From: Pyrinomonadaceae bacterium
GTDB taxonomy: Bacteria > Acidobacteriota > Blastocatellia > Pyrinomonadales > Pyrinomonadaceae
DNA length: 64,000 nucleotides
Assembly (NCBI GenBank): GCA_019694345.1
Contig: JAIBCA010000043.1
Location: 1 to 64,000, forward strand
Reading direction: 5' to 3'
In this document: positions 23,114 to 41,659 of the stretch, one piece after another
Numbering within the stretch: the stretch's first letter is position 1
Layout of the letters: every line of letters begins with the position of its first letter
Notes under the pieces: model-generated
What the model was told of the DNA's origin: nothing
Database searches by the model: none
What the model saw: only the letters and a program-made list of their open reading frames with translations
Program-made: the position numbers and the translations under genes

Positions 23114-25351
23114 CTAATAGACGGCGAGGCCGGGATCGTCGCTGACAGCCGTGGGCTCAGAGCCAGGTATCAGAGCGACGGGCAGCCAGCTTTTGTGTTC
23201 GTAAAGTGCTTTGTCGATGTTTTCGGCGGTCTGCGGACGAGCGAGCAGGTAGCCCTGGCCGTAGTCGCAGCCGAGATTTTGGAGCAGATGAAGTTGGGTC
23301 TCGGTCTCGATGCCCTCGGCGATGACGCGCATCTTGAGGTTTTTGGCGAGCGAGATGATGGTCTGCAGGATCTCGCTGTTCTCGCCGTTCTCACCGACGC
23401 TGTAGACGAACGACCGGTCGATCTTGAGGCTGTCGAATGGCAGCTTGTGTAAAATGCTGAGGCTCGAGTAACCGGTGCCGAAATCGTCGATCGACAGTTT
23501 GACGCCCAACTGTTTGAGGCGGTTGAGGACGTTGATCGTGTGATCGGCGTTTTCCATCGCGGTGCTCTCGGTGATCTCGAGTTTAAGCGACGACGGGTCG
23601 ATCTTCGACATTTCGAGAGCGTGTTCGACATCGGCGATCAGGTCGCCGTGCATAAGGTGCTTGCCCGAGATGTTGACGCTGACGATCAGATCACTGTACG
23701 ACGGATTGATCGTTTGCCAATGAGCGAGCTGGTTGCAGGTCTGCCGGAGTATCCAGATCGTGATCGGAATGATCAATCCCGAATCTTCAGCGATCGGAAT
23801 GAACTTGTTTGGCGGAATATTGCCGAACTCACTGTGATTCCAACGCAGAAGTGCCTCGAAACCTAGCAGATGGCCATCCTGCAGATCGACCAGCGGCTGA
23901 TAGTTCATCGACAATTCGTTACGGTCGATCGCCTCGCGCAGGTCATTCTCATACCGGACACGTTCGATGAACCTGAATCGCAATTCCTTGGTGAACACGG
24001 CGACGCCGACATTGCGCTCCTTGGCGTAATGCATGGCGATATCAGCATCGCGGAGAACCTCTTCCGGCGTGTTGTACTCGGCGTCGCACGGGGCGATACC
24101 GATGTTCACGCTGATCGTTATGTTATTCCCGCTCAAGCTGAACGGCTGTGAGATGTTGTCGTATATTCGCCGCGCGACCTTTTGGGCTTTGCCGGCCGTA
24201 GCAACGTTTCGCAGTATGATCGCAAACTCGTCTCCGCCGATACGGGCGACGACATCGGTCGGCGCGAGCATTCGGACAAAACGCTTTGCCGCGACCATCA
24301 GGACCTTGTCGCCAAACGTATGGCCGAGGCTGTCGTTGATATTCTTGAACCGGCTGATATCGAGGAACAGGACCTGAAAGGTTGCGGCCGGGTCCACTTT
24401 GTACTCGTGGATCATCGTACGAAGAATGTCGCCGAGCTGTTTGCGGTTGGCAAGATTGGTGAGCGAGTCGTGCAATGCCGCGTGCTGAAAGTCTTTTTCG
24501 CTCTTACGCAGTGCAATGTTGGCGTGCTCTTCCTTTTCGAGTGAGATGGCGAGCTGTGCGGCGTGGTTTTCGGCCTCGCGTCGAAGGTCGCGTTCGGCCT
24601 CGGCCTTTTCGCGTTCGGCTTCCTCCGCCTGATCGATGGCCTCGTTGACCTCGCGGATCGTCTGGCGGTAGCTCAGGTAGGCGATCGACAGAGCCGCCAT
24701 CGCGATGCCGCCGGTGATTATGTCGCCAAAATTGATCAGTTTGAAGAGCAGGCCGGCCAGAGCGGCTCCGACGATCTGCGTCATCGAACTCGAGAAACAG
24801 TCTTTGCGCCAGGTCGAGAAGAGATTTGAGCCGTCCTTTAACGACTGAAAAACGGCAACGATGAACGACGAGGTCGCAAATTGGACAAGTGCGAGAAAGC
24901 CGAGATACGCGACCAACGCCTGTGTCGAACGCGGGTCAAGCTCGCGAAACGCCAACAAGTGAACCGTATCCCAAGCGAGGATCGTCAACGACGTAGAAAC
25001 CGTCGCGATGGAGACATTGGTCGGGATCATCAGCGGACCGAACGGAAATCCTTTCTTTCGCAGGTAGAGACAGTTGGCAAACGTCTCTGACGCCGCAACG
25101 ATGACGGCAGCCGGGCCGCCGTACAACAGAAACGTGAGAAAGATCAGGGCGTCGGCAAAACTTATGGCAAACTTCGATCGCGGCAGAGCAAGACTCATTC
25201 GCGGGGCCAGGATCACCGCAAATCCCAAAACGAAAGCAAATCCCCAACTGAATACACCCATCGTGAGATTGGCCGCAGCCAACGAGATCGAGAATATTCC
25301 GGCAAGGATAACTGTTCCTTTGGCGGTTTCGTATGCCAGGTTTCTTTCCAT
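23114..25351 (-). CDS. Membrane-bound GGDEF-EAL cyclic-di-GMP signalling protein
   Basis: About 745 residues from the ATG at 25351 (a GTG at 25408 would add 19). The N-terminal half-membrane domain has about 8 transmembrane segments (residues 5-220) and is followed by a charged coiled coil (about 230-290). The GGDEF domain (about 300-465) has an intact RIGGDEF active site and LTNLANR start. The EAL domain (about 480-730) has the EALLRW signature, DDFGTGYSSL, KIDRSF and AEGIET motifs. Both active sites look complete, so it may make and degrade cyclic-di-GMP. The sensor part has no known ligand motif. It is a single-gene unit. Confidence 0.93.
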   Translation of the reverse strand: MERNLAYETAKGTVILAGIFSISLAAANLTMGVFSWGFAFVLGFAVILAPRMSLALPRSKFAISFADALIFLTFLLYGGPAAVIVAASETFANCLYLRKKGFPFGPLMIPTNVSIATVSTSLTILAWDTVHLLAFRELDPRSTQALVAYLGFLALVQFATSSFIVAVFQSLKDGSNLFSTWRKDCFSSSMTQIVGAALAGLLFKLINFGDIITGGIAMAALSIAYLSYRQTIREVNEAIDQAEEAEREKAEAERDLRREAENHAAQLAISLEKEEHANIALRKSEKDFQHAALHDSLTNLANRKQLGDILRTMIHEYKVDPAATFQVLFLDISRFKNINDSLGHTFGDKVLMVAAKRFVRMLAPTDVVARIGGDEFAIILRNVATAGKAQKVARRIYDNISQPFSLSGNNITISVNIGIAPCDAEYNTPEEVLRDADIAMHYAKERNVGVAVFTKELRFRFIERVRYENDLREAIDRNELSMNYQPLVDLQDGHLLGFEALLRWNHSEFGNIPPNKFIPIAEDSGLIIPITIWILRQTCNQLAHWQTINPSYSDLIVSVNISGKHLMHGDLIADVEHALEMSKIDPSSLKLEITESTAMENADHTINVLNRLKQLGVKLSIDDFGTGYSSLSILHKLPFDSLKIDRSFVYSVGENGENSEILQTIISLAKNLKMRVIAEGIETETQLHLLQNLGCDYGQGYLLARPQTAENIDKALYEHKSWLPVALIPGSEPTAVSDDPGLAVY

Positions 25352-25483: not shown

Positions 25484-25597
25484 TGTATACGAATTATACA
25501 CCTCGAAAATGGATACTTACTATACAAACTCGTAAGTTGAACAAAGTGAATGACTTGAGCGATCGCGAGCCGGGAGGTGATCATTAAGTATACACAT
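25484..25597. repeat. Cluster of GTATAC/TATAC motifs upstream of the GIIIAG peptide gene
   Basis: Within this AT-rich stretch the pentamer/hexamer TATAC or GTATAC recurs: TGTATACGAATTATACA (itself an inverted repeat with 5-bp arms), ACTATACAA and AGTATACACA. They lie 180-290 bp upstream of the peptide start, between it and the GGDEF/EAL gene. They could be regulator sites for either divergent gene. Function is unknown. Confidence 0.35.
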
Positions 25598-25639: not shown

Positions 25640-25670
25640 CGCTAAATATCACTGTATCAACAATTTAGCG
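25640..25670. promoter_or_regulatory. Inverted repeat, candidate upstream activating sequence
   Basis: CGCTAAAT (25640-25647) and ATTTAGCG (25663-25670) are perfect 8-bp inverted arms 15 nt apart. The centre is about 68 bp upstream of the start predicted for the sigma-54 promoter. This is the usual type of site for a dimeric enhancer-binding protein; which protein binds is unknown. Confidence 0.45.
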
Positions 25671-25695
25671 GGCGACGCATGGCCATGCCACAGCT

Positions 25696-25712
25696 TTGGC
25701 ACGGGGCTTGTA
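25696..25712 (+). promoter_or_regulatory. Sigma-54 (RpoN) promoter of the GIIIAG peptide gene
   Basis: TTGGCACGGGGCTTGTA matches the -24/-12 consensus TGGCACG-N4-TTGCA at all but one fixed position (GT in place of GC at -12), with correct 12-bp GG-to-G spacing. Transcription would begin near 25723, leaving a leader of about 54 nt that includes GGAGAAGAG just before the ATG at 25777. A gene for a sigma-54 activator lies at 40151-41659. Confidence 0.7.
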
Positions 25713-25776
25713 ATAAGGGTGGCTGTACAGAGGCAATAACGCTTCGATCAGAAATTAAACTTTTGGAGAAGAGAAA

Positions 25777-26061
25777 ATGAAAAAGACAATCACAACATTC
25801 GTACTCGCAGCGATCCTTATGATCGGTTCATCGGCAGCTTTCGCAGGAGACGGTATCATCATCGCCGGCCTGGCAAACGACCCCTGCGTTCAGAACGATA
25901 ACACCGCGAAGACGGGAACGACCTCGTCGAGCAAGGACGGCATCATCATCGCCGGCTTCACGGGCATCATCATCGCCGGTTTCACGGGTATCATCATCGC
26001 CGGCTTTGGCGAAGGTAAGGACGAGGCTCCGGTCAACTGCGGCATCATCATCGCCGGATAA
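25777..26061 (+). CDS. Secreted short peptide with five GIIIAG repeats, undescribed
   Basis: A 94-residue protein with a clear signal peptide (cleaved after AFA, residue 23). The predicted mature part is about 71 residues. It contains the hexapeptide GIIIAG five times, at residues 26-31, 55-60, 63-68, 71-76 and 89-94. The middle three form an 8-residue (24-bp) tandem GIIIAGFT repeat. The first copy begins just after the cleavage site and the last is the exact C-terminus. A Ser/Thr/Lys/Asn-rich spacer (35-53) and two cysteines (37, 88), possibly a disulphide, separate the copies. At DNA level each copy is close to GGCATCATCATCGCCGG. A strong ribosome binding site, a sigma-54 promoter and a strong terminator show a dedicated transcription unit. 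I recognise no family; Gly-flanked isoleucine runs suggest beta-strand assembly (amyloid-like or surface-active), which is speculation. Confidence 0.82.
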   Translation: MKKTITTFVLAAILMIGSSAAFAGDGIIIAGLANDPCVQNDNTAKTGTTSSSKDGIIIAGFTGIIIAGFTGIIIAGFGEGKDEAPVNCGIIIAG

Positions 26062-26107
26062 ATACGGTTACATCCCACTCGCGAGGGGGTGAATACCTCA
26101 CACTTAC

Positions 26108-26137
26108 GGCCCGTTTCGAAAGAGACGGGCCTTTTTT
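26108..26137 (+). terminator. Strong intrinsic terminator after the GIIIAG peptide gene
   Basis: GGCCCGTTTC-GAAA-GAGACGGGCC forms a 10-bp stem (one G-U pair) with a GAAA tetraloop and is followed by six T residues. The T-run overlaps the stop codon of the convergent cysteine desulfurase gene. Confidence 0.9.
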
Positions 26138-27326
26138 ATTTCCCGGCGGTCGATGACCTGGCGGGATTGAGTTTGCGAAGGTTTTCGACCGCGGCGGGCA
26201 GGACCTCGAGAACGTGATCGACGTCGTCGTCGGTATTGAATTTACCGAAACTGAAACGGATCGCACCGCGGGCCAGCGAATCGTCGCGGCCGAGAGCCTT
26301 GATCACCCGCGAAGGCTCGATCGATCCTGACGAGCACGCGGAACCGGTCGAAACGGCGACCCCGTGCATATCGAGATTGATGAGCAGGCCTTCGCCCTCG
26401 ACCCCATCAAATGAAATATTTGAGACATTTGGGACGCGTTCTGCCCCAAGGCCGTTGACGACGATGTCGGGTATCGCCTCGCAGACGCGGCTTTCGAACC
26501 GGTCTCGCATCGCTTGCAGGTTGGAACCGACGGTTGAGAGCTCAGATCGGGCGATAGAGCTCGCTTCGCCAATGGCCACAATGTTTGCGACCGGTTCGGT
26601 CCCGGCCCGCAGGCCCCGCTCTTGGCGTCCGCCGATATTTTGAGCGTGAAGCCGCGTGCCGCGGCGAACGTAAAGTGCCCCGGAGCCTTTCGGCGCATAG
26701 ATCTTGTGGGCCGAGATCGACAGCAGATCGCATCCGATCGCCTCGACGTCGATCGAGACCTTGCCGGCGGCCTGGATCGCGTCGGTGTGAAACCATATCT
26801 TGCGTCCGGCTTCACGCAGGCCGCGGACGATACGGCCGATCTCTTCGACCGGCTGAATGGTACCGATCTCATTATTCGCCATCATTACGGTGATGAGTAT
26901 CGTTTCGTCGGTTATCGCATTTCGCAGATCCTCGGCCCGGACGACGCCGTTCGAGTAAACGGGCAGCCGCGTGACGCTGTAACCGCGTGCTTCGAGATCC
27001 TCGCAAACGTTCTTCACGGCCGAGTGCTCGAACGCCGAAGTGATGATGTGTTTCCCGTATTTTTCATTTGCCTCGACAAGGCCGCGAATAGCGAGATTGT
27101 TGGATTCGGTGCCGCCGGAGGTGAAAATGACCTCATTCGGCCGCGCATTGATCAGTTCGGCGACCTGGTGACGAGCCTTGTCGATGGCAGCACGAGCCTT
27201 TTGACCCTGAAAGTGGATGCTCGATGCATTGCCGTAAAACTCCGAAAAATACGGGAGCATCGCCGCAACGACCGCGGGATCGGCCGCCGTCGAAGCGCTG
27301 TTGTCCAAATAAACACGTCGAAACAT
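26136..27326 (-). CDS. Cysteine desulfurase (IscS/NifS type)
   Basis: This 396-residue PLP enzyme of aminotransferase class V takes sulfur from cysteine for Fe-S clusters or thio-modification. Marks are YLDNSASTAADP at the N-terminus, FTSGGTESNNLAI, EHSAVKN, the PLP lysine in SAHKIYAPKGSGALYV, and the active-site cysteine in STGSACSSGSIEPS within a long mobile loop, which places it in group I (IscS/NifS). No iscU, suf or thiI gene is adjacent. It may support Fe-S needs of the divergent radical SAM protein 221 bp away, but this is only suggested by position. Confidence 0.95.
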   Translation of the reverse strand: MFRRVYLDNSASTAADPAVVAAMLPYFSEFYGNASSIHFQGQKARAAIDKARHQVAELINARPNEVIFTSGGTESNNLAIRGLVEANEKYGKHIITSAFEHSAVKNVCEDLEARGYSVTRLPVYSNGVVRAEDLRNAITDETILITVMMANNEIGTIQPVEEIGRIVRGLREAGRKIWFHTDAIQAAGKVSIDVEAIGCDLLSISAHKIYAPKGSGALYVRRGTRLHAQNIGGRQERGLRAGTEPVANIVAIGEASSIARSELSTVGSNLQAMRDRFESRVCEAIPDIVVNGLGAERVPNVSNISFDGVEGEGLLINLDMHGVAVSTGSACSSGSIEPSRVIKALGRDDSLARGAIRFSFGKFNTDDDVDHVLEVLPAAVENLRKLNPARSSTAGK

Positions 27327-40154: not shown

Positions 40155-41659
40155 TTGCGAAAGCGTTGCGGGTCGATGTTGTACTTGCGTATCTTGTAGC
40201 CTACGATCCGCTCGGTCGAATCGAGCATTTTTGCGGCCTTTGCCACATTTCCCCTTGTTGATTTGAGCGTGTCCTGAATGAGGTCGCTCTCGAAAGCCTC
40301 GACCGCCGAGGTCAGCGTGACTCGCGTCTCGGTTCCGCTATTTTCGGCCGTCTGCAGTGTCGGAGGCAAATGATGGCCGTGTATCACGTTTGAATCACAC
40401 ACGATCACCGCTCGCTCGATCGCATTTTCAAGTTCGCGGACATTGCCGGGAAAATGGTATGCCGTGAGCATATCGATCGCCGGGGTCGAGATGCGGCGAA
40501 CGCGTTTTTGGTGCTCGCGTTCGTATTTTTCCAAAAAATGTTCTGCCAGCAAAAGGATATCAGCCTTTCGCTCACGCAGCGGCGGAAGGAATATCGTGAA
40601 CCCGTTGATCCGATAGAACAGATCCTCGCGAAACCGGGCCTGAGCGATCTCGGACTCCAGGTCTTTAGTTGAAGCGGTAATGAACCGTACATTGACCTTG
40701 ACCGTCTCGCCGCCGCCGAGCCGCTCAAACTCGCCCTCGCGTATCGCCCGCAACAACCTTGCCTGCGTATGCGGCGAAAGGTCTCCGATCTCGTCGAGAA
40801 AAAGTGTGCCGCCGTCTGCAAGTTCGAGCCGTCCTTTTTTTCGCGTTGCGGCTCCGTCAAAGGCGCCTTTTTCGTGACCGAATAGCTCACTTTCGATCAA
40901 TGATCCGGGCAATGCGGCACAGTTGACCTTGACGAAAGGGCGTTTGGCCCTGAGGCTGTTGTAATGGATCGAATTCGCGATCAGCTCTTTGCCGGTCCCG
41001 CTCTCGCCGCGGAGCAGAACGGTGGCATTTGAACGAGCTACCTGTGCGGCCTGGTCGTACACCTGCCGCATCGGGCTGGAATTTCCGATAAGGTGGCTGA
41101 ACCCATACTTTTCTTTCAGCTCTTGTTTGAGGTGTGAGTTCTCCTCGATCAGCTTTCGGCTCTGTTCGTTGACGGTCTGTTCGATCCGCATTGCCTGAGC
41201 GATCAGGCCCGCAATTACCTTGAGCAGCTTGATCAGGTCATTTTCGGCAACCCTTGCCGCAGGGCGAAACCCGATAGCGACCATTCCGGCAGTCGATCCG
41301 CGCATCACGATCGGTGCGGCGATGAGCATTTTTGTGCCGGTCCCGAACGCGAGGAACTGCAGAGCCGGGTCTGCCCCGAGATCATCGATCACGAATGGGG
41401 ACGACGAGTTGAATATCTTCCAGAGACTGCTTTTTGTGATTCGCGTTTCCAGCCGTCTGAAATCCGCCGCACCGATGCCGCTGGAGGCCAGAATATCGGC
41501 GAACTCCCGATCGGCCCGGCGCCGAGCCACGAACGCGACGCTGGCGGAAAAAGCGTTTGCGAGATTTTCGATAACGGAGGAGCTGCCTGAGCGAATGCCG
41601 TCAGCCTCGGCAAGCGAGGCCGAGGCCCGAGCAATGAAATCAACATGGTCAACTCTCAT
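40151..41659 (-). CDS. GAF-AAA+-Fis sigma-54-dependent activator (NifA/NtrC class)
   Basis: About 502 residues. A GAF sensor domain covers about 25-165. A short coiled linker and the AAA+ domain follow, with Walker A GESGTGKE (221-228 counted from the TTG at 41668), Walker B LFLDEIGD and arginine-finger region. The C-terminal Fis-type helix-turn-helix is [23 protein letters not shown], NifA-like. The sigma-54 contact loop reads GAFDGA instead of the nearly invariant GAFTGA, at about 268-273. The ATG at 41659 is chosen; the TTG at 41668 is also possible. It is coupled to glnE by a 4-bp overlap. A likely target type, a sigma-54 promoter, is found at 25696-25712. Confidence 0.92.

Follow-up and report, generated by a model that had tools for sequence, protein, structure and literature searches.

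A predicted secreted peptide family of Pyrinomonadaceae with a conserved sigma-54 element and species-private, internally matched repeats

The window, a stretch of 64,000 nucleotides from a Pyrinomonadaceae bacterium, contained on its plus strand, which also carries all the features below unless stated otherwise, an open reading frame at positions 25777–26061. As read from the sequence and its homologues, it encodes a secreted repeat peptide of 94 amino acids. The full translation was MKKTITTFVLAAILMIGSSAAFA|GDGIIIAGLANDPCVQNDNTAKTGTTSSSKDGIIIAGFTGIIIAGFTGIIIAGFGEGKDEAPVNCGIIIAG, in which the bar marks our reading of the cleavage site (AFA|GDG). The putative signal peptide MKKTITTFVLAAILMIGSSAAFA (25777–25845) was recognized from the sequence, and its A-x-A-like site was conserved in the relatives. 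The motif GIIIAG was present in five copies: copy 1 at residues 26–31 (25852–25869), copies 2–4 as GIIIAGFT GIIIAGFT GIIIAG at residues 55–60, 63–68 and 71–76 (25939–26004), and copy 5 at residues 89–94 (26041–26058), the exact C-terminus. Two invariant cysteines, Cys37 and Cys88, corresponded to positions 25885–25887 and 26038–26040, respectively. The Shine-Dalgarno sequence GGAGA (25765–25769) lay 8 nt before the ATG, which is preceded by a GGAG-type sequence in most homologues too, and an intrinsic terminator with a 10-bp stem and a T-run was located at 26108–26137. Re-reading of 25777–26061 bore out the first-pass annotation of a 94-residue frame with signal peptide, five exact GIIIAG, two cysteines, Shine-Dalgarno and terminator, including the 8-residue tandem formed by the middle three copies (residues 55–76) and the position of the last one (89–94). 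One detail had to be corrected, as the first copy, previously placed directly at the cleavage site, begins two residues (GD) past the likely site; in relatives with NA|GIII, the first copy does begin there. Removal of the signal peptide would leave a mature peptide of about 71 residues. A degenerate DNA pattern for GIIIAG gave six matches in the 3.5-Mb genome, five of them in the peptide gene, and none in the reversed-pattern control. No plausible second GIIIAG protein that could act as a docking partner was found in the window genome; the PQQ-propeller-like protein that was considered for this role has one single-copy GIIIAG match, probably due to chance.

A sigma-54 −24/−12 promoter, TGGCAC-N5-TTGTA, was located at 25697–25712, with one mismatch to TGGCAC-N5-TTGCW (10/11), as had been reported at first. 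Such an element was present upstream of all 36 of the first homologues, 47–75 nt before the ATG and scoring 9–10/11, and upstream of nearly all additional homologues whose 5' region could be read, its common form being TGGCAC/T-N5-TTG. As far as sequence conservation can show, the peptide gene is under sigma-54 (RpoN) control. Three palindromic sites were found further upstream: TGTATACGAATTATACA, a perfect TGTATA-N5-TATACA (25484–25500), TGGATACTTACTATACA with one mismatch (25510–25526) and the half-palindrome TGATCATTAAGTATACA with three mismatches (25578–25594). Counted from the T that opens the −24 TGG, they lie at −213, −187 and −119 in the window; across the family, the fixed positions relative to the −24 element are −212, −186 and −118. 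When sites were required to match at least 9/12 and to deviate from these positions by no more than 4 bases, the three were present in 27, 27 and 28 of 35 loci, respectively, compared with 0–1 at control positions. In the whole window genome, TGTATA-N5-TATACA with at most one mismatch occurred only at the peptide locus. Their conservation marks the three palindromes as a putative activator-binding enhancer. The inverted repeat CGCTAAAT-N15-ATTTAGCG (25640–25670, with 8-bp arms at 25640–25647 and 25663–25670), pointed out as perfect in the first-pass annotation, is indeed present, but it is perfect only in the window species. It is the local form of a dyad core, TAA...TTA, kept at the same place in the relatives (AA at −52/−51, TTA at −31 to −29). 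Although this core is conserved, the repeat was rejected as the main activator site in favour of the three palindromes. Overlapping it, between enhancer and promoter, an IHF-like element TATCAACAATTTA (25655–25667) matched the full consensus; in the relatives the consensus was matched at about the same place by 6/9 on average, a likeness that is not decisive.

The window genome encodes 12 full enhancer-binding proteins (EBPs). Comparison of their orthologues across eight genomes (G042 and G044 being sampled in part) revealed no EBP confined to peptide-bearing genomes, and co-occurrence singled out no dedicated activator among the 12. In the window itself, a sigma-54 activator with a GAF-like looking, non-receiver N-terminal region is encoded on the minus strand at 40592–41092, 15 kb from the peptide gene; its orthologues also occur in genomes without the peptide. 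The genome-wide number of sigma-54-like sites (13) was hardly above the control (9); besides the peptide gene, a type IV pilin gene and an ECF sigma factor gene have such a site in front of them. The type IV major pilin gene at L070 (contig C100) has a sigma-54 element, TGGCACGGCTCTTGTA, at a distance of 64 nt on its 5' side, with an EBP gene about 1 kb upstream (C100:16396). At L076 (contig C153:2798), a sigma-54-like element immediately precedes a secreted-looking ORF with a likeness to ClpB-type AAA proteins in their N-terminal part. Two nearly identical response-regulator EBPs (MINSVLIVDDE...) were seen in one genome at L157 and L160 (contigs C10 and C78).

The peptide gene is flanked by a divergent gene for a membrane GGDEF-EAL protein (23114–25351, minus strand), which may share the intergenic enhancer region, and by a convergent gene for a NifS-like cysteine desulfurase (26136–27326, minus strand). 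Most relatives showed the same arrangement, within a neighbourhood of GGDEF-EAL, prolyl oligopeptidase, NifS, radical SAM and glycosyltransferase genes. The GGDEF-EAL gene was the nearest upstream gene in 29 contexts. Because the outer genes, prolyl oligopeptidase and NifS, were about equally conserved, this neighbour mainly reflects vertical synteny; it is only weak evidence for a link to c-di-GMP and was rejected as functional evidence. A GGDEF-EAL orthologue without the peptide was found in the genus member G063. As for a sigma-54 promoter of the divergent gene itself, the best scores (7–9/11) were not convincing. In genome G074 (L135:1–4468), this GGDEF-EAL/NifS locus carried two tandem copies of a signal-peptide-less form, MNNTQTSDIRGIIVSDFSRGIIVSDFAKGMLVSDFSR..., downstream of a sigma-54 element. 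No linked curli/Fap-type export or nucleator genes were found at the peptide locus or at those of the relatives. The radical SAM gene 1.5 kb downstream, the hydrophobic repeats and the secretion would fit a bacteriocin, a membrane-active peptide or a modified (RiPP) peptide. We found no support for these readings, nor for the "surface-active" and "modified/processed" peptide proposed at first: with 58 versus 425 bits at best, the radical SAM protein fell far short of all curated maturase cut-offs, and neither it nor the prolyl oligopeptidase was supported as a RiPP enzyme. The convergent nifS lies between the radical SAM gene and the peptide gene, a glycolipid-synthase-like gene accompanies the radical SAM gene, and no conserved immunity or transporter gene was found. 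Among RiPPs, a Sec signal peptide would be unusual. We regard this whole group of readings as very improbable.

The profile search with 35 members found the peptide family, as a single copy, in 55 of the 119 genomes of the GTDB family Pyrinomonadaceae, the weakest few matches being fragments or distant forms; a single-sequence search matched 36 of the 119. Within the same genus, 37 of 41 genomes had a homologue, nearly always one each, and the 368 genomes of the phylum outside Pyrinomonadaceae had none. A single-protein search returned four named relatives, including Acidobacteria OLB17, Pyrinomonadaceae Bin_6R and gp4 AA15. Searches of Pfam, NCBIfam and PDB gave no significant relative, in keeping with the earlier remark that no family with this repeat had been described. 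The family is real, narrow and undescribed. In the alignment of 35 proteins, every member had a signal peptide and both cysteines. The motif, whose core almost always consists of aliphatic beta-formers, was present in 3–7 copies per homologue (35 homologues), typically one or two before the first cysteine, three or four between the two, and one or two after the second. Terminal copies were situated near or at both ends of the proteins, the last one ending exactly at the C-terminus in 32 of 35 proteins, and the spacing between copies varied (6–9 and longer). Open frames in 36/36 of the first homologues and diversified codons rule out a simple-sequence or frameshift artefact. Homologues in related genomes, a varying copy number and a sigma-54 element kept upstream, which the first-pass annotation had suggested looking for, were thus all found in Pyrinomonadaceae, and its idea of a dedicated, sigma-54-driven, secreted, repeat-built peptide is supported by the family conservation, the promoter and the signal peptide.

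The repeat noticed at first, GIIIAG, is not the fixed motif of the family: the repeat is species-specific and internally matched. The dominant motif was GIIIAG in the window and GIIVAG, GIIIDN, GIIINN, GIIINS, GIIIGG, GILITD, GIIISD, GIVPVG, GIIMSG, GIIVFG, GILVTG, GVIVNLT, GIIIAK and others in other species. A 27-tip tree built from the flanking GGDEF-EAL and NifS proteins bore 19 dominant motifs, and the motif switched at least 20 times on it. The window peptide, with five GIIIAG, illustrates this: the sister (L031) and the next relative (L032) have six GIIVAG each, in which the Val codons are position-specific. Two motif types were present in the proteins of L036, L038, L049, L121 and L126, each type often being at least paired, and L036 alternates GIIILG and GILVSD; the pattern gives the impression that a motif requires a counterpart of its own type. 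Identical copies in one precursor, a lineage-specific sequence, secretion and a regulated promoter would also fit a multi-copy peptide signal, that is, a precursor cut into identical short hydrophobic peptides for a receptor, like yeast alpha-factor and P-factor or the enterococcal hydrophobic pheromones. Fungal repeat pheromone precursors do exist (PMC6342294, PMC7329392). However, no conserved cleavage residues surrounded the copies, the residue before G being T, D, A, C, G, V, N and so on, and the spacing was variable. The invariant cysteines and the flush terminal copies would be left unexplained, and a search of the surroundings for a linked peptidase or transporter gave only one gene, prolyl-oligopeptidase/oligopeptidase B-like, in the broader syntenic block, most copies having no proline. 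A signal of this kind is improbable.

Likeness among the copies of one protein could also arise if a short DNA repeat had recently been duplicated in tandem or spread by gene conversion, the matching not being selected. The high between-copy codon identity of some genes (0.78 in the window) is consistent with such an origin, as is a small within-gene codon excess. At motif positions 5 and 6, the amino-acid identity was 0.70 and 0.69 within genes, versus 0.18 and 0.36 between genes, respectively; when the copies were shuffled among genes (2000 shuffles), the maximum was 0.335, compared with the observed 0.694. Codon identity for the same residue was 0.564 within genes versus 0.491 between genes, adjacent and distant copies being alike. 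The corresponding excess (bootstrap 0.046–0.098) leaves room for some local duplication. More than one codon was used in 81 of 99 shared-residue sets, five of which showed Ser or Leu codon-box switches, and among protein-identical copies these included Ser AGC/TCG and Leu TTG/CTC. In six close species whose proteins are free of gaps, amino-acid identity was higher within the gene (0.88) than between orthologous copies (0.67), whereas codon identity was lower within the gene (0.59) than between orthologous copies (0.70). DNA copying would match the silent positions; these hardly match, and the matching was therefore not produced by DNA duplication. As the amino acids follow the gene and the codons follow the position, the copies have been re-matched by selection on the protein. 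Within-protein matching is selected at the protein level, and the codon identities, the six-species comparison and the mixed synonymous codons rule out DNA-level homogenisation. Unselected duplication or conversion as the explanation of the matching is extremely improbable.

A sister family was found in other genera, at loci L297–L336 of genomes G039, G040, G041, G106 and G109, with up to eight paralogues per genome. Its members comprise a signal peptide, a motif, TPPPPPPQ, a second matching motif and the amphipathic C-terminus LTEIALTLLQTLIPLL; no sigma-54 element was found in those that were read. The paralogues of one genome differ in motif (GIIWTG, GIIHTE, GIMWTG, GIIWTE...), and the copies match within each protein. 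For motif pairs picked by eye, 66 of 78 positions matched within proteins, versus at most 64 in 20,000 within-genome shuffles. The copies share codons as well, and DNA duplication could be a source of the matching in this family. In the peptide family, selection for matching would act either through contacts between the copies or through contacts of all copies with one outside partner. A single co-evolving partner (surface receptor, outer-membrane protein, chaperone or export factor), binding all copies in the same pocket and with avidity, likewise predicts protein-level matching and lineage-specific motifs. It would nevertheless require a separate partner for each of the differing, self-matched motifs of the sister-family paralogues, and no conserved neighbour beyond the general syntenic block was seen. 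Different motifs in paralogues of the same genome, each matched within its protein, therefore favour self-matching over one shared partner, which we consider rather unlikely.

We propose that the peptide is a secreted subunit under sigma-54 control whose beta-strands stack homotypically and in register, so that it assembles in a functional-amyloid-like manner as a surface fibre or film, and give this model a probability of about one half. A predicted enhancer-binding activator, bound to the three upstream palindromes, would switch on the sigma-54 RNA polymerase; only then would the product be made, and the signal peptide would be removed from it. In the mature chain, either end would be occupied by one G-[ILV]3-x-x strand and the middle by about three, and the two cysteines may tie the chain ends together by a disulfide. 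The copies would stack on each other and on those of neighbouring molecules as an in-register beta ladder, and the stacked chains would form the fibre or film at the cell surface. If each copy stacks on its equals, a substitution arising in one would select for the same substitution in the others, leading to a private motif per lineage. Whereas the matching itself is observed at the protein level, stacking is its proposed cause in this model, in which we infer the export route, the disulfide, the assembly, the function and the activator. Self-assembly is suggested by the evolutionary pattern. The peptide is secreted and repeat-built, as judged from its signal peptide and 3–7 aliphatic G-[ILV]3 repeats, and its aggregation-proneness was judged from composition only. 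The AlphaFold monomer model (35 sequences) had a pLDDT of 45 and a pTM of 0.21, which speaks neither for nor against assembly: a protein that becomes ordered only on assembling should give such a pLDDT, which is evidence for nothing. The spacing of the copies is variable, and the sequence therefore does not require a regular solenoid. Two kinds of motif, or end copies that do not match, are found in some of the proteins; this counts against homotypic stacking, as does the lack of a linked curli/Fap-type export partner. The stacking model may be taken one step further: as a tentative idea, which we hold to be doubtful, the lineage-private hexapeptide repeated through the surface subunit and re-matched by selection could be a self-recognition code, with fibres assembling only with their own kind.

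Repeats within one protein are normally alike because DNA was copied. The peptide family shows the reverse, as the DNA diverged and the protein copies were brought back to agreement at least 20 times on the 27-species tree. In folded multidomain proteins, neighbouring repeats are kept different, which avoids misfolding (PMC4660218); this is the reverse tendency, found where association of a protein with itself does harm. The species-private, internally matched motif is new and surprising and hints at a self-assembling surface material. Its record would be a natural record of homotypic matching, with the direct prediction that mismatched copies should fail, and the family offers dozens of ready-made, possibly orthogonal motifs. 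A little-cultured soil lineage also gains a concrete, predicted sigma-54-controlled secreted component with a mapped putative enhancer.

Several known systems share some of these features. The regulatory region resembles the enhancer-dependent sigma-54 promoters of nifH and pilA in its −24/−12 element, its upstream palindromic activator sites and the conserved element between them, but here three fixed-position sites serve a single locus, as judged by near-perfect sites. Several copies of a short peptide in one secreted precursor are likewise found in repeat pheromone precursors, such as yeast alpha-factor and the P-factor encoded by S. pombe map2, and in Kex2-processed repeat proteins; these have processing sites around each copy, and none were found in the peptide family, in which flanks and spacing vary. 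EbfG1–4 of Synechococcus elongatus are double-glycine-type small proteins encoded in an operon. Like the peptide, they are small and secreted; they belong to the biofilm matrix and contain hot spots where a short hydrophobic stretch (LAFNIG) can form a steric zipper, the matrix proteins EbfG1–3 having short steric-zipper segments (PMC9981879), but they have no matched repeats and their sequence is unrelated. With CsgA and FapC, the peptide shares the plan of a small Sec-secreted subunit with about five repeats, end repeats able to join molecules, and aliphatic ladders; in CsgA, five repeats stack as residue ladders and the end repeats R1 and R5 join subunits (PMC9268375). It differs from them by its repeats of 6–8 residues, which are identical and species-private as opposed to longer, imperfect and rich in Gln/Asn/Ser, by its two invariant cysteines and by its predicted sigma-54 enhancer control. 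There is no sequence relation, Pfam, NCBIfam and PDB giving no significant match to CsgA/CsgB, FapB/C or curlin repeats, and no csg/fap-like operon at the peptide locus. Concerted evolution, with in-register co-variation and a split into discrete types, has been described for the repeats of HET-s and explained by parallel in-register stacking (PMC4518210). The peptide is alike in that the repeats within one protein evolve in concert while types diverge. The HET-s domains, by contrast, are fungal intracellular cell-death domains with 21-residue motifs in only two similar repeats, and their partner NLR carries the motif too, whereas no second motif-bearing protein was found for the window peptide. 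The concerted HET-s repeats, the CsgA ladders and the EbfG zippers are thus precedents that fit stacking.
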